Below are positions 1,464 to 16,586 of a stretch of DNA of 24,905 bases, piece by piece. Origin of the DNA: a virus. The notes beneath the pieces are model-generated. The model was not told the DNA's origin. It ran no database searches and worked only from the letters and a program-made list of their open reading frames with translations. The first letter of the stretch is position 1; every line of letters starts with the position of its first letter. The DNA is taken from positions 1-24,905 of IMG/VR virus record IMGVR_UViG_3300000116_000070; one strand, 5' to 3'. A program made the translations under genes and the position numbers.

Positions 1464-4214
1464 CTATTTAATTATCGTCTTAATCGGTTTAACATTAACC
1501 GTGCCCATTCCTGTAGCTCTTTGGAATTTCAATCTAATATTTGCACCTAAGACATCTGCTGTCAAAGTACCTATATCACTATCGTTTGCAAACGAACTAA
1601 TAACACCATATTCTGTAAAGAATACATTTGATTTATTATATGTTAAAAGAACTTTTGATATTTGTGAATGACCAGCATCTGAGTCATCCATATGAACCGT
1701 ATATTCAACCGAAGTGAAGTCGGAGTCGTGTGTAGTATTATCAACAACAATGATTGTATCTGAAGACGCTTGACTCTGAGTTGGTGTATTATTTGTAATA
1801 CCGTTGGTATTTGTAATACTATTTGCTGTCACCGTGTCTGGTGTGATATCACCTAAACTAATCTCACCACTTGATAAAACAACACCATCTGCAACAGAAA
1901 AATGAGCTCTTACTTCTGCAGCACTTGGTCCAGTATATTCTATAACGCCAGTACTTGCTGTATATGTTAAAGAACCATCACCACCATTATCCGTTACTGA
2001 TATCGCGTTCTTAGCATCAGAATCCGCTCTGGCTGTGGTATAATATAGATTCGTACCTTCAGCTAAGTCTGTAGTAGTTTTAGTTGCAAGTCTTACATCA
2101 AAGGCGCTATCTACTCTAGATGTAGTATAGTAAAGATTTGTACCTTCACTTAAATCAGTTGTTGAGAAAGATGATAGACCAATTCTTGCATTAAAGGAAC
2201 CACCGTCTGCTGTTCCAATATTTAATGTAGCGTTGGATGAGTCAAATGTAAATGTTGATACACCAGCGACAGATACTGTTCCAGCAGAATCTAATTGACC
2301 TTGAGCGTTAACAGTAAATACTGGAACTTCTGAAGCAGATCCGTATGTTCCAGCAACAACTCCTGTATCAGTAATACTTAAAGTGTTTGTAGAAGAATCA
2401 TATGAAAGGCCGGTTCCATTGATTGCTGCAGCATCTAGTGATGTATTGAAGTCAGAATCAAAGTTTGCTTGAGTATAAACAGACTCTACATCAAAGCTAA
2501 ATTGGCCTGTTGATGAGTCATAAGACAAATCGCCAGCAGTGCTGAAGTATCCCCTAATCGAATTAATTGTGGATGTTCTTGCAAGGTCACTATCAAAACC
2601 TAAATATTCACCGGTAAGTGAGCTACCTGTGATTCCACTATCAGCAACTATGCTACCCCATACACGAACACCATATGATGTTGTTTCTAGTCTATGACTA
2701 TCAGCAAAGTAAAGCTCAATGTGACCACTATCACCATATGTTCTTAGCTGTCTTTGTTCAGAAAGGTTTTCAATTACAAATTCGTTAGTAAAAAAACCTA
2801 TCCTATGATCACTATCAACACTGGTCTTATGGATTGTGGTTCGTTTACCTCTAATAAATAGATCTTCAATTCGTGATGTTTCTGTGTCATTCGAATCTAA
2901 GAAAATTATTTTGTTAACATTGATCGTGTCAGTGACAACTGTATTTGAGATGGCTGAAGTCACTCGAGCATCTGTATAATAAAGATTGCTAACACCTTCG
3001 TTTAGATCATCTGTACTAAACATGCTTGTGAATTCAGAAGAATCAATACTTAACGTGTTGCTTAATTCATTATATGCTAAACCTTGGCCATCAACTGGTC
3101 GAGTATAACTAAATTGACCATTCAAACTATCATATGATAGATCTCCAGCCACGCTAAAATGAGCTCTAACATCAGCAGCTTCTGGACCATTGTATGAAAT
3201 CTGACCAGTCTCTGCATCATATACTAACGACCCGTCACCACCATTATCACTTACTGATATTGCATTTTTTGCAGCACTATCTGCTCTAGCATCAGTATAG
3301 TAAAGATTAGTACCTTCGCTCAGATCTGTAGTGGAGAAGTTTACAAGATGGTTTCTCGTACTACCTAATGGTTTATTCAGATCCCAAGTATCTGTAACCG
3401 AATTGTAAACTATTGATGCGTTTGCACCTTCTACAGTTATTCCTGCTCCACTTGCAACTGCAGAATCAGTAGCAGAATCTGCTAAAATAATATTTTTGTC
3501 GTTCACTGAAAGTGTTGTGGAATTGATAGTAGTAGTTGTACCTTCAACTGTTAAGTTACCAGCAACAACTAATGTACCTGTGTTATCACCATGAGCAGCA
3601 GGGTCAATAGTAAAGGTGCTTGGTCCTTTTAATGTACCAGTCATTTGAATGTCTGAAACTGAACCACTCGATAGTCGCGCATCAACACGACTATCGGTAT
3701 AATAAAGATTACTATCACCTTCAACTAGTTGATTTGTACTAAAAGCAGCTAAACCTATTCTAGCATTAAACGATCCACCATCAGCAGTTCCAATATTTAA
3801 TGTCGCACTAGCCGAGTCGAATGTAAACGTCGATACACCTGCTACAGCAATTTCACTGATGCTATCAATGTGCCCAAATGAATTGACACTGAATTTTGGA
3901 ACTAGAGAAGCTGACCCATATGATCCACCAACAACGCCTGAAAGCGAGTGAGTAAACTGTCCTGTAGTTGAATTATACTCTATTGCATTGTTTGCGCTGA
4001 GTAAATTTCTAACATCTGAGTCAAAGTCTTTGTGAAGAAATAATTGCTGAGAAGAGTCCCATCTAAGATAGGAGCCTTCAGCAAGATTAATGTTATCATT
4101 AACATCATCTTGACCAACAATAGTACCAATAGAAGGATCACCGATTCTAGTCGGCGTTCCAACTGTTATTCTTTTAACTAAAGTTGTTCCGGCCGATACA
4201 ACACGAATAGCCAT
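1464..4214 (-). CDS. Modular tail-fibre/virion structural protein, 916 aa
   Basis: This is a long, Asp/Ser/Thr/Gly-rich protein in which I see no cysteine, built from repeated beta-rich modules. The N-terminus (MAIRVVSAGTTLVKRITVGT) is a recurrent start in marine T4-like fibre proteins. Motifs of the type NLYYTDARVDS recur throughout. One module (DNGGDGSL then EVRAHFSVA) occurs twice, and another (VSTFTFDS then NIGTADGGSFNARIGL) also occurs twice. The last 110 or so residues form a distinct domain (TIIVVDNTTHDSDF then VFFTEYGVI) of the kind that caps phage fibres. The start is supported by a strong AAGGAG site about 6 bases upstream. It lies 9 bases after the 118-residue gene in the same late unit. 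The role is inferred to be a host-contact fibre; the receptor and attachment site are unknown. Confidence 0.9.
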   Translation of the reverse strand: MAIRVVSAGTTLVKRITVGTPTRIGDPSIGTIVGQDDVNDNINLAEGSYLRWDSSQQLFLHKDFDSDVRNLLSANNAIEYNSTTGQFTHSLSGVVGGSYGSASLVPKFSVNSFGHIDSISEIAVAGVSTFTFDSASATLNIGTADGGSFNARIGLAAFSTNQLVEGDSNLYYTDSRVDARLSSGSVSDIQMTGTLKGPSTFTIDPAAHGDNTGTLVVAGNLTVEGTTTTINSTTLSVNDKNIILADSATDSAVASGAGITVEGANASIVYNSVTDTWDLNKPLGSTRNHLVNFSTTDLSEGTNLYYTDARADSAAKNAISVSDNGGDGSLVYDAETGQISYNGPEAADVRAHFSVAGDLSYDSLNGQFSYTRPVDGQGLAYNELSNTLSIDSSEFTSMFSTDDLNEGVSNLYYTDARVTSAISNTVVTDTINVNKIIFLDSNDTETSRIEDLFIRGKRTTIHKTSVDSDHRIGFFTNEFVIENLSEQRQLRTYGDSGHIELYFADSHRLETTSYGVRVWGSIVADSGITGSSLTGEYLGFDSDLARTSTINSIRGYFSTAGDLSYDSSTGQFSFDVESVYTQANFDSDFNTSLDAAAINGTGLSYDSSTNTLSITDTGVVAGTYGSASEVPVFTVNAQGQLDSAGTVSVAGVSTFTFDSSNATLNIGTADGGSFNARIGLSSFSTTDLSEGTNLYYTTSRVDSAFDVRLATKTTTDLAEGTNLYYTTARADSDAKNAISVTDNGGDGSLTYTASTGVIEYTGPSAAEVRAHFSVADGVVLSSGEISLGDITPDTVTANSITNTNGITNNTPTQSQASSDTIIVVDNTTHDSDFTSVEYTVHMDDSDAGHSQISKVLLTYNKSNVFFTEYGVISSFANDSDIGTLTADVLGANIRLKFQRATGMGTVNVKPIKTIIK
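1899..2077 (-). repeat. Fibre module, second copy
   Basis: This is the same module as at 325-502 and 3156-3335 (LAEGTNLYYTTAR, DNGGDGSLTY, EVRAHFSVA). It lies near the 3' end of the 916-residue fibre gene. Confidence 0.8.
2160..2365 (-). repeat. Second fibre module, copy 1
   Basis: Encodes GVVAGTYGSASEVPVF through VSTFTFDS to NIGTADGGSFNARIGL. It is paired with the copy at 3735-3945 in the same gene. Confidence 0.75.
3156..3335 (-). repeat. Fibre module, third copy
   Basis: This is the same module, in the middle of the 916-residue fibre gene (SEGTNLYYTDAR, DNGGDGSLVY, DVRAHFSVA). It is more diverged in DNA than in protein. Confidence 0.8.
3735..3945 (-). repeat. Second fibre module, copy 2
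   Basis: Encodes GVVGGSYGSASLVPKF through VSTFTFDS to NIGTADGGSFNARIGL, nearly identical in protein to the copy at 2160-2365. Confidence 0.75.
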
Positions 4215-4223
4215 TACGTCTCC

Positions 4224-4580
4224 TTAGGTCCTTGTAACCGAAGGTGATACAGTGATCTGTCCTTCTAGTATTCTTTCTATGAGAGTGTTTGCAGCACTAT
4301 CAGTAGAAGAAATCTCCACATCATAGACATAACGACCGGCTTTCATTGCACCGGTCTGAGAATTGGTTAGTGTAAGATTAACAATTCCATCAGTAGCAGG
4401 TGATGCTATTTGAGTAGAAAATGTAACCGCATCAGAATCACTTGAAGAGTATGTTTTGCGAATTTGTGCAGCAACGGAATAACCTGTTAAGTTTTTCTTT
4501 GCGCCAGAAGTATCTACTAACTCTAATTGTATAGATTGGTCTGCACCTTGATCAATAGTTATATCTTCGTACTGCGACAT
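4224..4580 (-). CDS. Small beta-sandwich virion protein, 118 aa
   Basis: This small protein belongs to a recognisable phage type with one beta-sandwich domain. It shows LTGYSVAAQIRKT at residues 31-43, a GIVNLTLTNSQTGAM strand, GRYVYDVEI at 82-90 and LEGQITVSPSVT at 105-116. Similar domains occur as small structural proteins, or as N-terminal adaptor domains of baseplate and fibre proteins. It is therefore probably an adaptor that docks the following fibre proteins, which is inference from position. It is the first gene of a unit driven by an exact late promoter at 4614-4621, whose 5' leader can fold around the ribosome-binding site. It ends 9 bases before the 916-residue fibre. No enzyme motif is present. 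Confidence 0.85.
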   Translation of the reverse strand: MSQYEDITIDQGADQSIQLELVDTSGAKKNLTGYSVAAQIRKTYSSSDSDAVTFSTQIASPATDGIVNLTLTNSQTGAMKAGRYVYDVEISSTDSAANTLIERILEGQITVSPSVTRT

Positions 4581-4613: not shown

Positions 4614-4621
4614 TATTTATA
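4614..4621 (-). promoter_or_regulatory. T4-type late promoter
   Basis: The minus strand reads TATAAATA followed by AAGG. This is an exact match to the T4 late -10 word recognised by the gp55 sigma factor with gp33 and the sliding clamp. It lies 33 bases upstream of the ATG of the 118-residue gene, in the short space after the glycosyltransferase, and overlaps that gene's stop codon (4617-4619). Confidence 0.8.
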
Positions 4622-5333
4622 AGAAATATTTCTCCAAACCTTTGTAATGTTCTTCCGTACATTGAGATAAAATACAGAACGTACTATCAGGATCATAGTT
4701 GAGATTACCTTGAAGATGATGATCCAATCTCCCACCCTTTGCTCTATGGTACCAATCTTTTCCATATTGTAGGTAATTAAACTTGTTGTAGTTATGATAT
4801 GTGAACCTATCAAATCCATAATATTTAACCATGTGAGTATCAGGATCTTTAAAAAATTTATTATAAACCTCTTTCATATTGATAGGGTTAAACAACATCA
4901 CAGATGTATTTATGATAGACTCAGGGACAACTAAAATATTATCTGGTCTCCCTGTATACGGATGATTTACTCCATTATCTAAGGCCTTTATTGTTAAACA
5001 GTAATAGGGATCATATCTATCAATCAAGTAATCAAAATTGTTTTGAATAACAATATCAAGATCAAAGTAAAAAGTTGGCTGGTGTAAATCTAAGTTAAAC
5101 AAGCAAATCTTCCACCAATAAGATTCTAAATCAAGTTCTTTATTAACAAAAATTGTGTTGACATCTTGTTGTTTATCTGATATACAATAAAAAGAAAATG
5201 GTAGAGAGCAATTCCTCTTTACCATTCTATAAAGTCTATTAACATGTTGTTTATTGTATTTGTCGCCTACACAAACGCAAACTATATTAACATTCTGTTT
5301 CAAGATCCTCAATAACCTCTTCCCAGAACTCAT
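4617..5333 (-). CDS. Putative glycosyltransferase (GT-A fold), 238 aa
   Basis: The protein opens with a beta strand and helix typical of nucleotide-sugar transferases (NIVCVCVGDKYNKQHVNRLY). It then has FYFDLDIVIQNNFD, whose D-L-D is the metal- and sugar-nucleotide-binding DxD motif at residues 91-93 from the start used here. DNILVVPESIINTSVMLFN follows and resembles the acceptor-side segment of family 8-like enzymes. The C-terminus is rich in Tyr, His and Trp. The start is uncertain. The frame is open to an ATG at 5426, but that overlaps the oxygenase gene by 140 bases and adds a poorly conserved hydrophobic leader. ATG at 5333 (overlap 47) and TTG at 5303 (overlap 17, near a GAGG) are more plausible. 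It is the last gene of the cassette after the oxygenase. The substrate is unknown; a phage fibre is inferred. Confidence 0.75.
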   Translation of the reverse strand: MSSGKRLLRILKQNVNIVCVCVGDKYNKQHVNRLYRMVKRNCSLPFSFYCISDKQQDVNTIFVNKELDLESYWWKICLFNLDLHQPTFYFDLDIVIQNNFDYLIDRYDPYYCLTIKALDNGVNHPYTGRPDNILVVPESIINTSVMLFNPINMKEVYNKFFKDPDTHMVKYYGFDRFTYHNYNKFNYLQYGKDWYHRAKGGRLDHHLQGNLNYDPDSTFCILSQCTEEHYKGLEKYFL

Positions 5334-5961
5334 CAGCTTCATCAAAAACAAAAGCGACAGTAATACGATAATCATCTGTATAAGCTGCGTGATAACACAA
5401 TTTATCTGGGTCATCATATGGACCAAAATATGTCATCTTTGCTTGCCAACCAGGAACATCTTGAATACGAACTCTCTCCTGTTTTTCAAGATCCCAGTAA
5501 TCAAACCAACCGTTACCGTTTTCCGAGTATGTTATGATAATATTATACCCTTTAGCGTTTGCATTGTTATGCCAAGAAATAAATCCACCTGGAGGATAGC
5601 ATGCATTCAAAGCATTGTTGCGTGCTGACATAAATTCCATTAGCTTTGTGTTGAGAGTGCGTGAAGCATCTTTGATAACCTTACCACGCATATCTCCACC
5701 TTCATGCTTGAGACCTGCAAACCCCTTCAACACCTTTGGAAAGCCATCATGACCTGAACCCATATTAATAATTTCATGCATATACTCATCAGATAACCAG
5801 TCATCGGGAGTATCATCCTTGTGATTAACAGTCATTTCTTTTGTAATTAATGGTGTATCATCCCCAGGCTCTCTTTTAAGAAGAACATCCTTATATTCAT
5901 TGAGAATTTCTAAAAATTCTGAATTGCGTATATTAATATCTCTCACAGGTATTTGTGCCAT
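5287..5961 (-). CDS. 2OG-Fe(II) oxygenase-like double-stranded beta-helix protein, 224 aa
   Basis: The C-terminal half has the layout of a phage 2-oxoglutarate/Fe(II) dioxygenase. PPGGFISWHNNANAKGYNI places His131 on the first metal-binding strand. CYHAAYTDDYRITVAFVF supplies the distal His191, with Arg199 eight residues later where the 2OG carboxylate is normally bound. The usual carboxylate of the HxD triad is replaced: the motif reads His-Asn-Asn, so Asn133 stands where Asp is expected. Catalysis is therefore possible but not assured. The N-terminal 120 residues are charged and not recognised. It overlaps the preceding glycosyltransferase stop by one base (TAATG), with AAGGG about 8 bases upstream of the start, so the two are translationally coupled. 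Its position between two glycosyltransferases suggests side-chain hydroxylation of a virion protein. The fold assignment is fairly secure; the activity is inference. Confidence 0.75.
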   Translation of the reverse strand: MAQIPVRDINIRNSEFLEILNEYKDVLLKREPGDDTPLITKEMTVNHKDDTPDDWLSDEYMHEIINMGSGHDGFPKVLKGFAGLKHEGGDMRGKVIKDASRTLNTKLMEFMSARNNALNACYPPGGFISWHNNANAKGYNIIITYSENGNGWFDYWDLEKQERVRIQDVPGWQAKMTYFGPYDDPDKLCYHAAYTDDYRITVAFVFDEADEFWEEVIEDLETEC

Positions 5962-6800
5962 TATAAAAACCCTTTATCTCCAGTTTTGTCCATCCAACTT
6001 GAATAATGTATAACAACCGGATCACTTTTTGTTTTCCAGTAATCTCTATTTGGATCCATTTTATCCATGTTATATGTACCGTCAGTATTGAATCCAAATG
6101 AAGTAAAATAATTCCAACGATAGTTATCGTCAAAAAACTTCCAGGATAAATCTTTATATTTAGGACTATGGTATATCAACCACCAAAGAGTTAGCTGATC
6201 CCATTGTCTAAAGTTACCTTTTCTGATAGTATCAAATTCAGGTGGGTTCCATTTACAAACTTCTTGTTCAAGAAATAATTTATACCAATCATTCATAAAT
6301 TCTCTTACAAGCGGATTTCTTGTATCATATAACGCAACACCACCACAGTGAGCTAGATGATCAGGAACACCAGCGCAACCATCATCTAAGATATTAGGAC
6401 CCCATTGCCACTCTGTAAAATGTTTTGCACCTTGCTTGGTAAGATTGACATATACCATATCATACTTACCGTCCTCGAGTTGATCGAAAACATTCACTAT
6501 ATCACTATCTGCTATTTCTATATCAGAGTCAAGATAAAAAGTTAAATCGTATGGGGAGTTTGCCATTCCATACATTTTTTCTCGCTTGGTGTTACTCAGC
6601 GTAGGTAGGACTTGCTCAAAGGGAGTAAAGTATTTTTGAGTTTCTACATCATCAATGAATTTTTGTTCTGTAAATAAAGTAATCTTAGCTTCAGGATAAT
6701 AATCAAGAATAGACTCTGCGAGGTTTTGAGCACTCATTAAGAATTGAATTCTTTGGGAAGCAACTACAACAAAACCCTTAGACGGATTCTCCTGGATCAT
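5961..6800 (-). CDS. Putative glycosyltransferase (GT-A fold), 279 aa
   Basis: The N-terminus GFVVVASQRIQFLMSAQNLA is a nucleotide-binding strand and helix. KITLFTE follows, then a long segment leading to DLTFYLDSDIEIAD, in which Asp91-Ser-Asp93 is the DxD motif that binds metal and the nucleotide-sugar phosphates. Later, CGGVALYDT at mid-protein and VIHYSSWMDKTG near the C-terminus match the acceptor-loop and terminal His features of GT-A enzymes. No signal peptide or membrane segment is visible, so it should act in the cytoplasm during particle assembly. The ATG at 6800 lies inside the end of the previous gene (overlap 23 bases) with GGAG 7 bases upstream, indicating translational coupling. 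It is directly followed by the oxygenase. The sugar donor and acceptor cannot be read from sequence. Confidence 0.8.
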   Translation of the reverse strand: MIQENPSKGFVVVASQRIQFLMSAQNLAESILDYYPEAKITLFTEQKFIDDVETQKYFTPFEQVLPTLSNTKREKMYGMANSPYDLTFYLDSDIEIADSDIVNVFDQLEDGKYDMVYVNLTKQGAKHFTEWQWGPNILDDGCAGVPDHLAHCGGVALYDTRNPLVREFMNDWYKLFLEQEVCKWNPPEFDTIRKGNFRQWDQLTLWWLIYHSPKYKDLSWKFFDDNYRWNYFTSFGFNTDGTYNMDKMDPNRDYWKTKSDPVVIHYSSWMDKTGDKGFL

Positions 6801-7230
6801 TCATAATCTCCATTAATAAAATAGTAGCATATGCTTGCATTTCAATTTGATTTTTTGCTTTTCTAATTTTTGCTTTTAGCTTGCGATTAGTTGATTCTTT
6901 TATTTCAGGAATTTCAAATGTTGCAAGTTTTGCGTTAAAAAGATCTTCTAAACGCTTTGCTTCGTTGCGTTCTTGTTGCTTTTTAATATTTGCTTCTCTT
7001 TCCTGACGATGTCTTTCTAACCGCTCTTCTGTAAATGTATCAATTTGTTGTAGTGTATTCTGTTCGATGACTTCTTCATAATCAGAAGTAATTTTTCCAT
7101 CCACATCAAATTTAGAAACTTTGGCAACAGTCGTAGAAAAAGATCCATCATCATGAGTGATGTTTAACCTTACAGTTAATCTGTCTTTTGCTGCATTATC
7201 CCAAAATGGATGTTTCCATTCCTTTTTCAT
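6778..7230 (-). CDS. Charged coiled-coil phage protein of unknown function, 150 aa
   Basis: I recognise this as a type of small protein found near the fibre genes of marine T4-like phages, but its function is not known to me. Residues 1-60 contain EWKHPFWDNAAKDRLTVRL and look like a small beta domain. Residues 65-110 are a long charged helix (TEERLERHRQEREANIKKQQ) with coiled-coil character. A basic segment (KLKAKIRKAKNQIEMQAYA) and a short hydrophobic helix follow. The start has GGAGAGTT 8-12 bases upstream. It starts 12 bases after the tyrosine-repeat protein and overlaps the next glycosyltransferase by 23 bases. It could be an assembly chaperone or adaptor for the repeat fibre; that is inference from position and the coiled coil only. 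Confidence 0.8.
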   Translation of the reverse strand: MKKEWKHPFWDNAAKDRLTVRLNITHDDGSFSTTVAKVSKFDVDGKITSDYEEVIEQNTLQQIDTFTEERLERHRQEREANIKKQQERNEAKRLEDLFNAKLATFEIPEIKESTNRKLKAKIRKAKNQIEMQAYATILLMEIMNDPGESV

Positions 7231-7242
7231 TGTAACTCTCCG

Positions 7243-10008
7243 TTAAGCTATTCGTACATATAACGTATATGTTTCGTTTGTTTCACTAGTCGCATCAATC
7301 GTCTCACCAGCAAAGTTTCCAATAAAGTTTCCAAGGTAATCTTGGATGTATTGATCCTCAAAGTTTCTTGCATATTCAATTTGGTAGTTGCCAGTATAAT
7401 CAGTAACATAGTTGCCGGTATATGTTCCTGTGTACTGATTACTATACTCTCCGGTATATAGCCCTGTGTATATACCGGTATATAGCCGTTCGTATGTTGC
7501 ACCTGTATACTGATTCTCGTACGTGGGCCCATCGTAAGGACCACCGGTGTATTGTCTTTGATAAACAGTTGTATAGGTTCGTGTGTAAGTTCCAGTATAA
7601 CCTTTTTCGTAAAACGCTGCAAATGTATTTTGAAATTCATTTTGATATGAGTTAGCAAAATTACCAATATAATTACCAGCATAGTTACCTTGGTACGATG
7701 CTTGTGTATATGCCTTTTCATAAGGCAATCCAAAAGTATTCGTATAGTTAACAGTATAGTTTGTTAAATATCCTATTAGCCTATAATTAATAAAGTTTGT
7801 GCTATAGTTACCAGCATAAAGTCTTGTGTAGTTACCAGCATAGTTGGTTTGAAATTCTTTTTGATAACTCGCTTGGAAATTTCGTATATAATTTGGGACA
7901 TAGTTTGTTAAGAAATTGTTTACAAATTGAGATGTGAAAAGTCTTTGATAACCACCTGTATATGTAACTATATAGTTTCCAAGATAGTTAGTACCAAAAC
8001 CAACGGCTCTGACATAGTTACCAACATATTGCTGGGTTCCTTGATGGTCGTATGTGATAAGTCTAGTATAACTAGCTAGATATCCTGGCGCAATATAATT
8101 TACATTACGTGTATAATTTTTGTCGAAATATCGGAAGCCTATATAATTTTGAAATAGATATCCTTGGAATTGTCGCTCTCCGGTATAGTTTGCTGGAACG
8201 TTACGAAGGTAGAAAAAAAACGCGGCAAATTGTCTCGCATATAGCGCGGTTCTTACCCTGCCATTAAAAAACGCTGGGCCAGTATAATCTGTATTATATA
8301 GAATCTGACTTGAGTAGTATACTGCGGCTCCAGGGCCCGCAAAAGGCCGTGAGCCAATATAAAAGGGTTCAAGAACCCCCGCAAACACGACGGCTTCATT
8401 CCCATAGCCTCTTTGGTAATATAAAGCACCAGCAAAGCTTCCACTAAAGGTTGTTCTGTCATAAGGTACATCTCTTTGGTATGACCCGTCAAAAACTCTA
8501 TTATAATTACCTAGATACGTTACATCACGTGTATAGTTTCTGAGGTAATCCAATGAGAAATCAGATCCTTCAAATGATCTTTCATATGTTACATTGCTGT
8601 CGCTTGTATAGTTCCTTTGATATGCTGGATTACCTTGAAATGTTGGTGCTGTATAATCTTTTGCGTAATCTGTTACGTAGTTAGATGTGTAAAGTCTGGC
8701 ATAGGCACCAGTAAAGTTTCTGTTATAGTCACCAGTATAATTCCGAAGATAATTGCCAGTATATTGTCTTGTATAGTTACGCTGAAACGGTTGAGTGTAA
8801 TTGGATGTGTAGTTTGGAGTAAATGTTCTGTTATAATTGCCAGTATAGTTAGCCTGAGTATATGTTTCTACTCTATCAATTGTATAATTTGTTGTGTAAT
8901 TAGATGTGTAAAGTCTGGCATAGTTATTTTCATACGCGCTGGTATATGGAGTGCTATTAAACGTATTAATGAATACAGATGTGTATCCAATTGTTCTATA
9001 GTTGGTAAATGATGCTGTATAGTTCTTTAAATAGTTTGCAACATACGGTTGTGTAAACGATTCGGCAATTAATCCTGTGAATGCTGTAGAGTATGTTGTA
9101 ATATATGCAGGCGATTGAGTTACTCTTGTATAATCAATCTGGCTTAATTTTGTGTAGTTTGTTGTGTATGCACCTGTGTAAGCATTAGTATAGTTTGCCT
9201 GAAAGTTGGCTGTACTATCTCTTGTGAACACTTGATCGCTGGTTGTCTGCTTGGTGTCGGTAGCAGTTCCGCGAGCTACCCACGTTCCAGGATCTGTTGG
9301 TGCACCAGCTGTTGCACTACGTAATTGATGTTTTCCAATTCCGGAATTTCCAATACGAGTTTTTGCTCTTTGACCAAAAGAAAACTTAATCTGACGGTCA
9401 TTCATTTCTTTGATTTTTATACCAGATCCGCCTGCACTATCTTCAACATACATAGGTTTTACAGCAGTCGGTGCTGTGCCAGATGTTTTACGGTAAATGT
9501 TGTATGTTATTGAAGTACCGTCAGTTCTTGTATCAGTAAATGCAGCTTGTTGAACAGACCAACCGCCTCCAGGAGAGCTTGATGCAATTCTATAAGACCC
9601 TGGATATTCATTTGTAAATACTTTTGTTAAATATCTATCAACAGCTTCATTAAGATCAACATCAGGCATCATTTTGAAGCCAGTTTGAGATGCTGAATCC
9701 ACCCACATTAGAGGAGATAGAATATCCGAATCCGTCTCAGCAGCAGTACCAGTTGTTTGATATATTGTGGTGGTTGTTGTACCAGTTGTAATAGAAGTTG
9801 ATGGGTGAGTACCTACTGGTTGATTAAAGAAAGTGTTATCAAAAGAACCAACAGTATCCCCAAGTGTTGTTCTATTCAGAGAACCAACCTCAGCTGAATC
9901 CCCTTGCCCTAAATGCACACCCACCTGAAAGGCAACGTAGTTTTCTTCAGCAGTAGTTAACTCCTGAATATTACCACTGACGTCTTTTATCTTTAAAGGT
10001 GTTGCCAT
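7243..10008 (-). CDS. Tyrosine-rich tetrapeptide-repeat virion/fibre protein, 921 aa
   Basis: Residues 1-265 form an ordinary N-terminal region, including EENYVAFQVGVHL and a Thr-rich linker, and probably anchor the protein in the particle. From about residue 268 to 900 the protein is made of four-residue units with an aromatic residue (Tyr, sometimes Phe) first and often Asn or Asp last. Typical units are YTGN, YTRN, YTSN and FTGA. The spacing is exact from Tyr388 to Tyr452 (17 aromatics, every fourth residue) and from Tyr839 to Phe899 (16). Occasional five-residue slips such as YDGPT occur. Residues 455-660 are less regular and richer in Gly, Ala and Pro. A short non-repeat tail ends in YTLYVRIA. 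The gene opens a unit headed by an exact late promoter and is followed by modification-type enzymes. I do not recognise a named family for the repeat. A fibre role is inferred from context and length. Confidence 0.85.
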   Translation of the reverse strand: MATPLKIKDVSGNIQELTTAEENYVAFQVGVHLGQGDSAEVGSLNRTTLGDTVGSFDNTFFNQPVGTHPSTSITTGTTTTTIYQTTGTAAETDSDILSPLMWVDSASQTGFKMMPDVDLNEAVDRYLTKVFTNEYPGSYRIASSSPGGGWSVQQAAFTDTRTDGTSITYNIYRKTSGTAPTAVKPMYVEDSAGGSGIKIKEMNDRQIKFSFGQRAKTRIGNSGIGKHQLRSATAGAPTDPGTWVARGTATDTKQTTSDQVFTRDSTANFQANYTNAYTGAYTTNYTKLSQIDYTRVTQSPAYITTYSTAFTGLIAESFTQPYVANYLKNYTASFTNYRTIGYTSVFINTFNSTPYTSAYENNYARLYTSNYTTNYTIDRVETYTQANYTGNYNRTFTPNYTSNYTQPFQRNYTRQYTGNYLRNYTGDYNRNFTGAYARLYTSNYVTDYAKDYTAPTFQGNPAYQRNYTSDSNVTYERSFEGSDFSLDYLRNYTRDVTYLGNYNRVFDGSYQRDVPYDRTTFSGSFAGALYYQRGYGNEAVVFAGVLEPFYIGSRPFAGPGAAVYYSSQILYNTDYTGPAFFNGRVRTALYARQFAAFFFYLRNVPANYTGERQFQGYLFQNYIGFRYFDKNYTRNVNYIAPGYLASYTRLITYDHQGTQQYVGNYVRAVGFGTNYLGNYIVTYTGGYQRLFTSQFVNNFLTNYVPNYIRNFQASYQKEFQTNYAGNYTRLYAGNYSTNFINYRLIGYLTNYTVNYTNTFGLPYEKAYTQASYQGNYAGNYIGNFANSYQNEFQNTFAAFYEKGYTGTYTRTYTTVYQRQYTGGPYDGPTYENQYTGATYERLYTGIYTGLYTGEYSNQYTGTYTGNYVTDYTGNYQIEYARNFEDQYIQDYLGNFIGNFAGETIDATSETNETYTLYVRIA
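7290..9205 (-). repeat. 12-base coding repeat tract (tetrapeptide units)
   Basis: The DNA repeats with a 12-base period matching the tetrapeptide repeat of the overlying gene. Variants of gta-tag-tta-cca and gtg-tag-tta-gat recur on the plus strand, for example at 7390-7490, 8690-8840 and 8880-8930. Units are diverged rather than identical, so the tract is old or under selection at the protein level. The middle (about 8030-8650) is the least regular. Confidence 0.75.
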
Positions 10009-10174: not shown

Positions 10175-13100
10175 TTACTCCTTCATTAACCTTATTTCTT
10201 CTCTAAGATCATCTATTTGTTCCTGTTGCTCTTTCATACCCTCAATCAGCAATGCGACAATTTTGTGGTATTCAACAGCTTTGGTTCCATCATCTCTTTC
10301 TCTGACAACTTCAGGAAGAACCTTTTCCACTTCTTGTGCAATAACACCTACATCACGTTTGTGAACAAAGTAGCCATCTTCACCACCGCGCTTCTTAATA
10401 TGATCGTCAGTCCAATCAAAGAATACACCTCTAATCGAATTAATTTTATCGAGAGCGTCATTTATTTCTTCAATGTTTTCTTTTAATTTAATGTCCGAAC
10501 TGTGGAAAGATGTAATATCACCAGTTGCTCTAATCTCGTTATCAACAATTGATCCAGTTGAATCGCCAACATAGAGACCTGTACTGATTACCTGCCCACC
10601 TTCTTTAAAGATAGTGCTCAACGCTGAATCTCCAGCATATTGAGTATAAATCTTCATATGTGCGTCTTCGGTAATATTGCTAACGTCAAGCACTTTACCT
10701 TCTATAGACATCATATGATGATAATCACCTGCGGAATTTCGAGCAGTCCATTTATGAGCTACCAATAAATCATTGTCTTGAAAATTGGTTTCGCGTACTC
10801 GGAATTCGACCGATTGTTGATTTATAGTAGTGCTTCCAGCTCCACCAGCGTCAAAAATAAACTCTCCTTTGTTAGTCGATGATGGACTCGTAAGATCACC
10901 TGCCACCAAATAAACTTTACCACCATCACCCTCTGAAGCCTGAAGATAAAGATCTTCAGCGGTACCAGCCTTGATGTTCATATTACCGGAGCTTTGGAAT
11001 ATAGTGTTTGCCACACTATTCACGTCTATATAAGCAGCACTACTAGTCAAAGTTGATGTTGCAGAATTACTAAAATAAATCCTGGCATCATCGGTGTGAA
11101 GCCAAATGTCCCCATCGAGGTTTGTTATGTGCAGGTCTTTGCCACTTGGACCGTCCGGACTACTAAATGCAATCCAACAATCGCCAGCATTTGTAGCAAA
11201 TGGAGTACCATCTGGAACTGTGATTGCTAATGTTCCGTAATCGTCGGCTCTACCTTCATTATACCAGTTTTGAAGTGAGAAGTATGAGTTGTCTCCTCCT
11301 GAAGCAAACAAGGTTTCTGGCGCGCCACCACCAGTACCAGTTTCACCTATATAGATTGCAGTTCCACGTTCACTACCAAGTATAAGATCACTGGTATTCC
11401 CAGTTCGCACTGATTGAGCTGTTAAGGTACTAAAATTAAGACTATCGACCATATCTCTTAGCTCAGATGAATCTAAACTAAAAGTTGTACCAGTTAAATT
11501 AAGTCCAGTTCCAGCAGAGTATGTTGTGTTATTATCTGTCCACGGAACATTAACAACTGCTTGCCCATCTGAATTTAGCTGAATGCCATATGTCTTACCA
11601 GCGGTTGTTGTTACTGAATTGGCCGCTTCTGATTGGTCTGTATCACTGAACAGCTCAATACCACCACGCGTGGTTGAGGTAGCTTCTGGAAGGGAATATA
11701 CCGTATCATTATCTTCCCAAGGAACATTAACAACTGCTTGACCGTCACTGTTCAACTGTATTCCGTATGTTCTACCTGCAGTAGTCGTAACCGATTCAGC
11801 AGCAGTTGATTGGTCTGTATCACTGAACAGTTCAATACCACCTCTAGTAGTTGAAGTGGCTTCTGGTAACGTGTAGATCGTATCAGTATCATCCCTCCAG
11901 TCTGGATTACCGCTACCGTCTGTTTTCCAAACCTTGTTAGCCTGCCCGCTACCTGAAGTAACGTAGCCTTCTTGTGAAGAAGTGTTTTGTTGCCATGTGT
12001 CTGTATCAACTACTGTTTCTGACGCAGTTGCAAAACCTGTAACGTGACCATAAGAGTCAATTGTAACGTCTTGGATATATGTGCGGCCGGTGTTTTCAGA
12101 TGAAATAGCAACTGTTGTTGCGTGGCCAATTCTACCAGCTGATGAATCGTATGTTAGAGCATCAGTAACATTAAGGAAATCTGTTGTGAAGATTCGGTGT
12201 GTATCTCCAACAAGACCTGCTGCCCAATAATCACCAGCTTCATTCCAGTTGACTACAGCGCTGTCGTTGCTTGGTCTATCAACAGCAATGCCAGCCCTAT
12301 TAGCATTAGCTACAACAACTCCATCATTAACAACGGTAAAGCTATTAGCATTTCGAGTTTGACCAACTGTTGTAAAGGTACCAAAAACAGTAAATCCAGC
12401 ACGAGCTATTATTTCATCAGTAACGTCTGCAACACCACCGACTTGCAAATTGCCTGTGATATATGCACTGTCATTAACAAGTAAGCTCTCAGATAAAATT
12501 ACCTCATTATTGGTAATTTGAATTCTATCTGTACCACCTGTCTGTAAGTCGATAGTATCAGTACCAAATCCAAGATATGTGTTTGTATCACCATCATGAT
12601 ATAACTTATCACGAAGATAAATGTTAGCAACATCATTGATATCGTTAGCTTGAAGTTCGAGTGTATCGCTAATATACACTTGCTCAGCGCCTGTAAACGA
12701 TTGAATCTGATCTACTTTGAGCGTTCCACCAACATCCAAGTCGCCTGTAATATATGCACTATCTCGAACAGTAATCTCACCAGCAAAAACTGTGTCCCCA
12801 CCAATTGTTACGTTACTGCCAACATCTAAGTTGCCTGTGATATACGCACTATCCTCAATTGTAAGAGCTTCTGTTGATTTAAGACCGTTGGTAGTATCCC
12901 AAGTTAATTTGCTATCATCTTGTAGTTCACCACTTGTACCAGCGATTACTACACGACCACTTGTTAGGTCAGAAACAGCTGCGGATGCTAGTGTAGCAGC
13001 CGTCCCAACAGTTAAGCTAGCACCAACATCCAAGTCGCCTGTGATATACGCACTATCTTGAACAGTGATAGTGTTTAAGAACTTTGTATCACCACCAACT

Positions 13101-13894
13101 TCTAAGTCACCAGTAATCGTAGCACTATCTGCTTCTAGACCTGTTGTATTAATACCTGGTCCATCCTTATGGATAGTAGTCGAACCAACTGTTAAAGTTG
13201 TGCCATTGAACGTAAAGTTAGTATCGTCTTCTAGTTCGCCACTAGCTCCAGCAATAATAACTCTGTTGTTAGTTAGATCAGAAACCTTTAAAGTACCAAT
13301 AGTCGCACTATCGGCCGCTAGTTCATCAGCATTTACAGTACCATCAAAGTACCCATGACGCCATTCTTTTGAAGAAGACCCCAAATCGTAATCATTGTTA
13401 CCATCAGGAATAATACTTGAATTAACTTCACCCGTTAGTGTAATTGTATCTGTTGATGCATCACCAAGAGCAATATTGTTATCAGCACCTGCTTTGAATG
13501 TTACTTGGCCATCAACAGTCAGTGTACCAGACATTGTAGCGTTGCCGCCAACATGTAAATTAGTATCTACCTGTAAATTGCCTCTTACGATATTAGTTGC
13601 AGAACTATCTGATAATGTGGCTCTGGGGGAAAGAAGTTCTGTATTATTAATTGAATCTAAACGACCATCTAACTCAGCAATAGCTCCTGATACAGTACTT
13701 GCGGTTGTTCCCATTGCACCTGCAGATATTGTACCTAGTTCCGTGTCATGTTCGTTAATTGCAGCTGTTACGTCTGTACCAGTAGTGGTTAGAGTGGATA
13801 CATCTCCAACTGAATCTAGCAACTGATTGAACTTCAATCGTTGGGTATTCAGAGTATCGGATAGATTTAAATTAGGTATTTTTGAATTAGCCAT
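10175..13894 (-). CDS. Long tail fibre with C-terminal S74 intramolecular chaperone, 1239 aa
   Basis: The protein starts [20 protein letters not shown]. It then has many beta-rich units built on [13 protein letters not shown] (residues about 260-490), two tandem 59-residue units beginning [11 protein letters not shown] (676-734 and 735-793), and a large Gly/Ser/Thr-rich shaft. The last 114 residues are a peptidase S74 (intramolecular chaperone) domain: [10 protein letters not shown], then [14 protein letters not shown] and a terminal coiled coil. In this family the Ser of S-D-x-x-L-K with the Lys five residues on forms the cleavage dyad, here Ser1133 and Lys1138. The chaperone drives trimerisation of the fibre and is then cut off. 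The gene overlaps the preceding 71-residue gene by 8 bases. A late promoter word within that gene (14024-14031) could drive it separately. It is probably a major host-recognition fibre. Confidence 0.92.
11516..11869 (-). repeat. Tandem duplication, two 177-base units in the fibre gene
   Basis: Two adjacent 177-base units (11693-11869 and 11516-11692) encode near-identical 59-residue blocks, each starting [20 protein letters not shown]. They keep strong DNA similarity; for example ggaacattaacaactgcttg occurs at 11544 and again at 11721, exactly 177 bases apart. Confidence 0.85.
12440..13130 (-). repeat. Dispersed direct repeats encoding [12 protein letters not shown]-type units
   Basis: On the plus strand, variants of gcctgtgatatacgcactatc recur near 12450, 12742, 12832 and 13035, with a more diverged copy near 13097. 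Each marks one beta-rich shaft unit of the S74 fibre. Unit spacing is irregular. Confidence 0.7.
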
Positions 13895-14102
13895 TTGTAC
13901 CGTTCTCTAATAATTTCTGCAACATGTTTTTCATTTGCTGAACTTCAGACTTTAGAGTGCTGATTTCCTCTTTATCATTTTTTATCCGTTCAACCATATT
14001 TAAGTGCTGCCTATGTTTATCCTTATTTATATTAACAATCATACCAGTTTGTGTATCCCTCGCGAGGTCTGGATGATCTTTAACAGGCATTAGATTTCTC
14101 AT
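13887..14102 (-). CDS. Small coiled-coil virion-associated protein, 71 aa
   Basis: The N-terminus contains a short conserved-looking segment ([20 protein letters not shown]). The C-terminal 35 residues form a heptad-like helix ([20 protein letters not shown]). Small proteins of this layout sit in the structural regions of marine T4-like phages; their role is not known to me. The start ATG overlaps the stop of the 563-residue gene by four bases (ATGA). Its own end overlaps the start of the S74 fibre by 8 bases, so all three should be translationally coupled. The gene also carries a late promoter word on its coding strand. It may be a connector or assembly factor for the fibre, which is inference. 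Confidence 0.8.
14024..14031 (-). promoter_or_regulatory. Possible internal T4-type late promoter
   Basis: An exact TATAAATA followed by AGG lies on the coding strand inside the 71-residue gene, 130 bases upstream of the S74 fibre start. It encodes part of VNINKDK. It could boost fibre transcription. Being inside a gene, it could also be chance in A+T-rich DNA. Confidence 0.45.
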
Positions 14103-15790
14103 GATGTAGCAATAATTCTCAGATTGCGGAAGGAAGGTGGGAATGATTCTCTTTGTGAATTCATTGTGATTTTTATCTGATACTGATCAAAAGCATCTAT
14201 ATCAAAGTCATCAAATTGATATTCTTTGAACATAAAATCATCCGCAGAAATCTCTGAGTACGTCTTACCCTGAGTGATTTTTGCTGTTTTACTAAACTCT
14301 GTCCATCCCTGATCTTCTAATTTTGAAGTTTCATCCGCACTGTTGACAGCTCTGTACCAAACAGAAAAGTCAGATTTGATTGGTCTAATTGCATCTACAA
14401 TAACAACTATAGATGTGGAAGAATTTTCCAATTGGTAAGGAACTGTGATATGTTTACTACCTGAAGTACCTCCATCTGCACTTGTTTCAGCAACAAAATC
14501 AACAGTGGAGATAATATTTCTTGTTTGGCTACCAGCATAATTGTCAGAATCTTGATAGTCGATCAAGTATTGTAGCGTGGATAAATGTGCTGCTCCAAGA
14601 TTAAAGTATGGCGCAACATTTGGATTATCCGTCCACATACTAATTGTAAACTTAGAAGATGGATTACCACTCAATCTCAAAGTTTCATTTTCCGCTGTGG
14701 CGAGAAGATGAGGATCAGAAAGTCTAATCATACTATTTGGTGAGATTCTGATGTTACTTGTTGTATTGTATGCAGTTTCATTACCAGCAAAACTTTTTGA
14801 TGTTGTTAGATCAGCTTTTGCCGATAAGTTGGTTTTACCAGGAGTCTGATATTGCAAATTCATAAACAACTCGTTGATAACGTAGTTCTCATTTGCTAAC
14901 AAACCAGTACCACCAGCTCTTATTGATGAGTCAGCTGCCGAATCCATCTTAAATGTATATCCAAATGGATCTGCTGCTGTAATGGTTCTTTGACCAAGAA
15001 TACTACTACCTAAAACACCATTGATAGTATCGCCACTATCAAAACTATTTACACCATCTGAAAACAGTGTTACCTTATCACCAACTTGGAAGCCGTGTCC
15101 TGGATGTCTTACTCTCAAATCAGAATCAGCTTGTGTAAATATCAATGGATCAAATGAATATTTACCTAAACCATCTATAACAGTAGTTTCTGTTAAACTT
15201 TTAAATGGAGGGTTGTCAGCATTCAATACAGCTGTGGCAATTGTTGATGTGTCAAATTGAGCTCTATACGCTTTAAAAGTAATGTCTTTTGATGGATCCG
15301 CTTCCCAAGCAGTTCCTGAAGATGAAGCAAAAAATGCACCTCTTTCAGTGGATGTTGATTGTGTATAAAAAGATGTTAATTTACCATATTTGTATTCAAG
15401 CGTTTCTGCCGTATAAATCTGATATTCGCCTGCAGGAGCAGAAGAATATAATACGAATGATACTAATGTGTTTGCAGGAACATACACAGGCTCTTCAAAC
15501 ACAAATTTGTGTTCTGGTGGACTTGAATAGAAAGTCGTTGTATCTGTCGTAGGACTGTTATCAAAGGAAATACCTGTTCCTGGTCCAGCTGTAACTCTTG
15601 TACCAGGAATATACCTTTTAGTTGAAGGAATACCACCTTCTGTAGTAGGTCTCAGTTCAACTGTAATTGGATATGTGCTACTTACAGAAGCAAAATAGAT
15701 ACCTATTCCTGTGAGAACAGATGCTTCATCCACAACAAAAGTTTGCGCTGTCGGATTAGCCTGTTGTGTTAATTGTAACGCTGCTGTCAT
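14099..15790 (-). CDS. Virion structural protein with fibre-like N-terminal domain, 563 aa
   Basis: Residues 15-33 (AQTFVVDEASVLTGIGIYF) begin a beta domain common in large marine-phage baseplate/fibre proteins. It continues with PITVELRPTTEGGIPSTKRY and VPANTLVSFVLYSSAPAGEY. In related phages this domain often lies in the C-terminal part of a long DUF4815-type protein; here it opens its own gene. The middle has a ligand-like beta region (RVRHPGHGFQVGDKVTL), and the C-terminus (FDIDAFDQYQIKITMNSQRE then [10 protein letters not shown]) is another compact beta domain. The start has AGGAAAT about 8 bases upstream. It begins 25 bases after the 253-residue gene and overlaps the 71-residue gene. 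No catalytic motif was seen. It is probably part of the baseplate periphery. Confidence 0.85.
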   Translation of the reverse strand: MTAALQLTQQANPTAQTFVVDEASVLTGIGIYFASVSSTYPITVELRPTTEGGIPSTKRYIPGTRVTAGPGTGISFDNSPTTDTTTFYSSPPEHKFVFEEPVYVPANTLVSFVLYSSAPAGEYQIYTAETLEYKYGKLTSFYTQSTSTERGAFFASSSGTAWEADPSKDITFKAYRAQFDTSTIATAVLNADNPPFKSLTETTVIDGLGKYSFDPLIFTQADSDLRVRHPGHGFQVGDKVTLFSDGVNSFDSGDTINGVLGSSILGQRTITAADPFGYTFKMDSAADSSIRAGGTGLLANENYVINELFMNLQYQTPGKTNLSAKADLTTSKSFAGNETAYNTTSNIRISPNSMIRLSDPHLLATAENETLRLSGNPSSKFTISMWTDNPNVAPYFNLGAAHLSTLQYLIDYQDSDNYAGSQTRNIISTVDFVAETSADGGTSGSKHITVPYQLENSSTSIVVIVDAIRPIKSDFSVWYRAVNSADETSKLEDQGWTEFSKTAKITQGKTYSEISADDFMFKEYQFDDFDIDAFDQYQIKITMNSQRESFPPSFRNLRIIATS

Positions 15791-15815
15791 TTTTTATTTC
15801 CTATATTGAGGCTTA

Positions 15816-16577
15816 CTAGTATCCAAGTGCCTTGCCGATCCAAGAGTTTGTCCAGTTACTAACAGAGTTTTCTGCGTTATTATAGGCTGTTGTGCTTTCA
15901 TAACCCAGCGTTTGGGCCTGACTAGCCGTTATATAATAGTTAAAATTATCACTTCCCAGATATAAGCCCATTGTGTTGTTGTCGTTACCACCATCATTAT
16001 GATCTCGCGGTGGATCTTCCCATTCTTCATAAGCTTCTTGTTCTGTCCATTGCCAATAATTTTCGTATTGACCTACCCCTCTGAACAATGCAGTGCCAAT
16101 GGATGAAGCGTCAGACTTATCGATACCAAAAGTATCTTTTACCATAAGTTCTGTGCCACTAGTATTGATAGGCCAGTTATATGTTGTATTACTCTGTAAA
16201 TAAAATAAACCTTTTAACACACCATTTGCATCAGAGAAAAGAGGATCAGTTTCTCCTCCCTGAGCTGTTGCTCCACTATACTGTATCCCACCCCCTGAAT
16301 TTTCGGTTGGAAACTCTGTTGCGGAAACATATCTTTCTCCTGGATTCTTTAAGAAATTATTTCTTCCTAAGAACGCATAAGTTTCATAGTCAGATTTTGT
16401 ATAACTTGTGTTAACAAATTTGGTTACTTCTTTACCGCCAAAATATAACCAGTGAGGTGCACTAATTCTTAATCCAACAAATTCAAAATAAATAAACTTC
16501 GGTCTATGGATTGGAATAGGATCATATCCTAACACTCTTGTTTGTTCAACATCTCTATATTTTGTTACATATGGCAT
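15816..16577 (-). CDS. Virion structural protein, 253 aa
   Basis: Residues 25-48 contain RPKFIYFE followed by FVGLRISAPHWLYFGG. This resembles the linker-type domain that follows the DUF4815 part in larger phage structural proteins, in which a conserved strand pair reads like GLKPNTRVYxFFDG. The middle is loop-rich. An acidic segment (WTEQEAYEEWEDPPRDHND) and an aromatic, Asn-rich C-terminus follow. The start is supported by AGGA 8 bases upstream. It lies 9 bases after the DUF4815 gene and 25 bases before the 563-residue gene, so the three form one co-transcribed block. It is likely a baseplate or fibre-connector subunit; confidence in the role is low. Confidence 0.8.
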   Translation of the reverse strand: MPYVTKYRDVEQTRVLGYDPIPIHRPKFIYFEFVGLRISAPHWLYFGGKEVTKFVNTSYTKSDYETYAFLGRNNFLKNPGERYVSATEFPTENSGGGIQYSGATAQGGETDPLFSDANGVLKGLFYLQSNTTYNWPINTSGTELMVKDTFGIDKSDASSIGTALFRGVGQYENYWQWTEQEAYEEWEDPPRDHNDGGNDNNTMGLYLGSDNFNYYITASQAQTLGYESTTAYNNAENSVSNWTNSWIGKALGY

Positions 16578-16586
16578 GTTATATTC

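Follow-up and report, generated by a model that had tools for sequence, protein, structure and literature searches.

The window, a 24,905-nucleotide stretch of viral DNA (IMG/VR record IMGVR_UViG_3300000116_000070), encodes on its reverse strand a 921-aa protein with an aromatic period-4 repeat (7243..10008). This protein consists of an N-terminal non-repeat domain common to its family (residues 1–265, 9214..10008), as delimited by alignments, an aromatic repeat region (about residues 266–902, 7303..9213), as delimited by autocorrelation and shuffles, and a C-terminal cap, ETYTLYVRI(A/S) (7243..7302), of which ETYTLYVRI is invariant in the alignment. On the same strand follow genes for a 150-aa helper protein (6778..7230), always placed between the repeat gene and the GT gene, a putative GT-A-like glycosyltransferase (GT) of 279 aa (5961..6800), a 224-aa protein with a predicted 2OG-Fe(II)-oxygenase fold (5287..5961), a second putative glycosyltransferase that is present at some loci (4617..5345, start codon uncertain), and a 118-aa homologue of 'L-shaped tail fiber protein assembly' (4224..4580), a boundary gene that is not module-specific. 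Directly upstream of the repeat gene lies a 1,239-aa tail fibre (10175–13894) with tail-fibre PHROG matches and, at its C-terminus, an intramolecular chaperone domain of the Peptidase_S74 type (E 2e-16).

Tyrosine and phenylalanine account for 23.5% of residues 261–895 and exceed expectation 2.8-fold at lag 4, 2.6-fold at lag 8 and 2.2-fold at lag 12, with enrichment below 1 at every lag that is no multiple of 4. Uninterrupted runs of Y/F at spacing 4 comprise 17 aromatics at residues 388–455 (8644..8847), 18 at residues 671–742 (7783..7998, the longest run), 13 at residues 772–823 (7540..7695) and 16 at residues 839–902 (7303..7494), all on the reverse strand; the longest run in 2,000 shuffles was 9. 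A preliminary description of this DNA had reported runs at residues 388–452 and 839–899, both of which proved real, and had overlooked the other two. The coordinates given there, 7243–9205, are right for the repeat part from residue 268 to the end and leave the N-terminal ~265 residues outside, and the estimate of about 630 residues built from tetrapeptides was slightly generous, as residues ~456–670 are rich in aromatics but irregular in their spacing. The accompanying view that the protein is neither a collagen nor a coiled coil agrees with a periodicity of 4 and its multiples only. Because tandem repeats at the DNA level are short and weak in this gene, the period-4 pattern does not stem from recent DNA duplication.

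Genome position and relatives of the repeat protein

The module sits between a VrlC-like gene and the 118-aa fibre-assembly gene, a location within the tail and host-recognition cluster. The host recognition cluster of pelagimyophages lies between VrlC and the neck genes, and in pelagi- and cyanomyophages the same genome slot is taken by fibres and glycosyltransferases (PMC7029224). In contrast to the window, P-HM2, HTVC008M and Melnitz-1 have the flanking genes without the module (HTVC008M in the stretch read), and in Prochlorococcus phage P-HM2 the 73-aa and 118-aa genes that flank the insertion here adjoin directly. The VrlC-like function of the window is seemingly split over ORFs of 987, 253 and 563 aa (14099–19550), whereas C48C1 and P-HM2 encode one long VrlC-like protein. 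Positions 1464–4214 and 1–1446 encode fibre-like proteins in which a motif resembling TTDLSEGTNLYYTTARADSDAKN recurs, and relatives of these proteins come after the 118-aa gene in 155 loci.

The preliminary description knew of no named fold with this periodicity and proposed a profile search for a characterised repeat family. No family in Pfam, PHROGs or NCBIfam matched the repeat protein, which upholds the statement at the level of sequence profiles; AlphaFold did not yield a usable model when run on the whole protein from seven sequences (pLDDT 29). A PDB sequence search with the whole protein returned chance-level matches only (E 0.008), the N-terminal domains of 14 divergent members yielded no profile match worth keeping, and we found no description of an aromatic period-4 repeat in the literature.

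Among 50,697 phage records, one homologue was recovered, WJE88074.1 of Phage C48C1 (OQ984149.1, Kyanoviridae), which is 3,347 aa long and annotated as 'hypothetical protein'. Its N-terminal domain is 41% identical to that of the window protein, it carries aromatic repeats and a near-identical C-terminal cap, and its gene adjoins 150-aa, GT and 2OG genes; it differs in length, in Arg/Thr/Ser-rich repeat variants and in inserted non-repeat domains. In uncultured T4-like phage contigs relatives are widespread, with 261 loci recovered by a profile of the N-terminal domain and 437 related loci by an oxygenase search of viral contigs. Lengths differ widely within the family; the longest run among relatives comprises 267 consecutive tetrads, and some fragments of repeat ORFs exceed 2,500 aa and are still open at the locus edge.

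A cellular origin was considered and rejected. The only matches in genome collections (L168, L169) belong to one 142-kb contig, JAAXIF010000028.1, which was binned in a Sphingobacteriales MAG and carries neck and terminase-like genes as in T4-like phages among its other genes, and it is apparently a T4-like phage. The contig also encodes two homologues of the oxygenase, together with aromatic-repeat genes.

Constraint and inferred structure of the tetrads

Across 17,040 tetrads of the family the consensus is [YF]-[TAVS]-G(62%)-[ND](56%), with Tyr at 65% and Phe at 35% of tetrad starts. Glycine therefore recurs at tetrad position 3 and not at every third residue, and membership in the collagen family is refuted by this placement together with the period of 4 and its multiples. 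In 23 pairs of relatives, amino-acid change amounted to 7.8% at the aromatic position, 5.8% at the third, mostly Gly, position, and 22% and 19% at positions 2 and 4, rates that are not strictly comparable owing to the differing codon degeneracy of Gly and Tyr/Phe; synonymous change was frequent in these pairs and present at all four positions. Y/F exchange made up 83% of substitutions at the aromatic position. At position 4, N/D exchange made up 44% of substitutions and N/S exchange, which is one transition away too, 2%. Indel lengths weakly favour multiples of 4 (35%).

These patterns bear on two explanations of the repeat. Low-complexity drift without structural meaning would be in line with the expansion of repeat proteins by slippage and with the wide variation of lengths in the family, but amino-acid changes are held back at the aromatic and Gly positions even as synonymous changes build up, and members without period 4 mostly keep an even spacing, so that drift is barely credible. 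That tyrosine itself is modified, by conversion to DOPA, cross-linking or Tyr-O-glycosylation, to give a mussel-like sticky or cross-linked fibre, would suit the dominance of Tyr at tetrad starts. Since Phe fills 35% of these starts and most substitutions there are Y/F exchanges, selection keeps the ring and not the hydroxyl, and we consider modification of tyrosine very unlikely.

Exceptions to the aromatic spacing of 4 are mostly 6, 10 and 14, all even. Spacings of 6 and 10 (YAGSRNYSDQ, YIDNVNYQDN) occur at L302, L304, L321 and L322, where the same enzyme genes adjoin. The even spacings suggest a beta-structure with the aromatics on one face, and we infer from the alternating conservation and the mostly even spacing an extended strand with one conserved face. 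The repeat region would thus probably be an extended beta-structure with an inward-facing ladder of aromatic and Gly residues (positions 1 and 3), while the variable small or polar residues at positions 2 and 4, frequently T/S and N/D, would point to the outside. Within the tetrads of L129, L114, L118 and L124, where neighbouring tetrads are less alike than shuffled ones, superperiods of 28, 20 and 12 residues were detected; as superperiods differ between lineages, no single coil length is implied.

Linkage of the repeat gene to the neighbouring genes

The repeat gene and the genes for the 150-aa protein, the GT and the 2OG-fold protein form a strictly linked module. The order 150aa-GT-2OG is kept in 160 of 165 loci, and a period-4 ORF lies directly upstream in 150 of the 156 GT- or 2OG-anchored loci with upstream sequence; among the remaining six, the loci that were read have either the N-terminal domain or related repeats with a different spacing. 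Starting from the N-terminal domain, the 150-aa and GT genes were present at 60 of 60 loci whose contig runs on; at all 58 that extend far enough, the 2OG gene was present as well. Scans with divergent queries found the GT gene accompanied by the 2OG gene (79/79), the 2OG gene by the GT gene (80/80), and a strict period-4 ORF upstream in 133 of 150 loci. Loci without strict period 4 mostly encode homologues with the same N-terminal domain and another spacing; at L407, the upstream ORF is unrelated to the repeat protein. The linkage was thus probed from the GT, from the oxygenase, from the N-terminal domain and again with divergent queries, and held each time. The linkage was judged at loci that are not cut by a contig end, and the counts overstate independence, as many loci are near-identical contigs; clustering of the first 165 loci at 70% identity gave 24 GT and 42 oxygenase clusters. 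The VrlC-like gene is present in 1,357 phage records and the 118-aa gene in 119, whereas the N-terminal domain, GT, 2OG and 150-aa proteins each match a single record, C48C1, among the 50,697 searched. The enzymes therefore track the repeat gene and not the neighbourhood.

This linkage weighs on the possibility that the fibre is unmodified and that the GT and 2OG proteins have other targets, such as host lipopolysaccharide, whose modification would block superinfection. Glycosyltransferases of the pelagimyophage cluster have been read as lipopolysaccharide-modifying, and HTVC008M, a phage of that study, is without the module in the stretch read (PMC7029224), both of which speak for such a role. 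However, genes for surface modification are not expected to follow one fibre gene so strictly: where upstream sequence is available, the GT, 2OG and 150-aa genes hardly ever occur unless the repeat gene or one of its variants is present, and on contigs that continue the repeat was not found without these three genes. We judge an action on lipopolysaccharide to be unlikely.

The putative neighbouring enzymes and a proposed fibre modification

Identification of the 5961..6800 product as a putative GT-A-like glycosyltransferase is based on a DxD motif (D91 and D93) that is invariant in 25 sequences and on GT2 profile matches, which are weak in eight of the 25 members (best E 0.0028) and below the cut-off in the member of the window. 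The second putative GT has weak similarity to annotated phage glycosyltransferases, and a similar gene is located downstream of the 2OG gene in 51 loci.

The 224-aa oxygenase-fold protein was modelled by AlphaFold with a pLDDT of 94.4 and a pTM of 0.90. The best fold matches in the PDB, with Z of 9–11 at 11–16% identity, are PHD2, PiuC, a Pseudomonas prolyl-4-hydroxylase and the chlorovirus collagen prolyl hydroxylase (vCPH), in accordance with a double-stranded beta-helix fold. H131, N133, H191 and R199 are invariant in 41 aligned sequences, and the model places the motif residues at the strand positions expected for metal and 2OG sites. R199 follows the distal histidine, H191, at the usual distance of 8–10 residues for the Arg or Lys that binds 2OG, whereas the usual HxD/E...H metal triad is HxN in all 41 sequences with both histidines invariant. 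None of 42 members matched a Pfam 2OG family, that of AspH included. The model thus supports membership in the 2OG fold with one defining feature changed.

Base hydroxylation followed by glucosylation is known in phages, and 2OG enzymes and GTs carry it out elsewhere. A TET/JBP-type modification of the phage DNA by this pair of proteins is nonetheless highly improbable, as both genes go with a fibre gene of the tail cluster and protein prolyl hydroxylases head the list of fold matches.

Another reading is a non-catalytic role of the 2OG-fold protein, which together with the 150-aa protein would chaperone the fibre, with only the GT, or neither enzyme, being active. Without its usual carboxylate ligand, replaced by Asn in all aligned members, the protein may be non-catalytic, and fibre chaperones are often encoded at this gene location. 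Against this, the invariance of H131, N133, H191 and R199 suggests that metal and 2OG binding is retained, and AspH needs no carboxylate, its activity being based on two His and retained in variants that have a single His ligand (PMC10947486). We regard the chaperone role as distinctly improbable. AspH is also a 2OG oxygenase that takes both Asn and Asp as substrates (PMC10947486), and N/D exchange dominates tetrad position 4 here. The N/D equivalence and the carboxylate-free oxygenase both resemble AspH by analogy, but the members here have no Pfam match to the AspH family and the likeness of the active site is drawn from the motif only.

The best explanation, and in our estimate a moderately probable one, is that the repeat protein is a tail fibre that is hydroxylated and glycosylated by its own enzymes to give a decorated shaft. 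Fibre shaft, sticky surface and modification substrate had been put forward side by side in the preliminary description; a fibre that at the same time serves as a substrate for modification is favoured, because the repeat gene lies in the host-recognition region and is always followed by a putative GT and a 2OG-fold gene. The repeat protein, whose gene lies in the host-recognition cluster, would form a long fibre associated with the tail of a marine T4-like phage and would be present in the virion. Before or during assembly, the 2OG-fold neighbour would hydroxylate the fibre, most plausibly at Asn/Asp of the tetrads and possibly also at outward T/S, and the neighbouring glycosyltransferase would then add sugar. 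The outcome would be a shaft with dense decoration that serves in contact with the host surface or as a shield. Other sites were considered and set aside: N-x-S/T sequons are not enriched (T/S after Asn 31.8% vs 36.1% overall), the Thr of each tetrad is no fixed target (position 2 frequently holds V, A or I), and prolyl hydroxylation is unlikely with Pro at 1.8% of the repeat proteins.

The nearest functional precedent, by analogy, is mimivirus L230, a virus-encoded 2OG hydroxylase and GT that acts on collagen-like proteins (PMC9614988). Mimivirus L230 and the collagen lysyl hydroxylase/glycosyltransferases LH3/PLOD likewise combine hydroxylase and GT for a long repetitive protein (PMC9614988), a combination that is putative here and read from the genes. 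Their substrate has Gly-X-Y with period 3, in contrast to the non-collagenous aromatic-x-Gly-x of period 4 with few Pro/Lys, and their activities are fused, whereas here they would reside in separate genes.

The repeat has no Pfam, PHROGs or NCBIfam family and yet is widespread in uncultured marine T4-like phages beside two putative modifying enzymes, which suggests a chemically decorated tail fibre that was previously undescribed. On this reading, such phages would make and chemically process a collagen-like fibre system of their own that uses another repeat, and the glycosyltransferases of host recognition clusters, hitherto read as lipopolysaccharide-acting (PMC7029224), would have a concrete protein target. 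A broader proposal, tentative and on balance doubtful, is a new fibrous class, restricted to phages, of aromatic-Gly beta-ladders with period 4 or other even periods and a dedicated Asn/Asp hydroxylase-GT pair; if the Asn/Asp hydroxylase-GT reading is true, it would constitute a prokaryotic-virus counterpart of collagen maturation with fibres whose length may reach thousands of residues. Loci L017, L020, L109, L117 and L230 encode two or three paralogues of the repeat protein in tandem, as if there were several fibre subunits.
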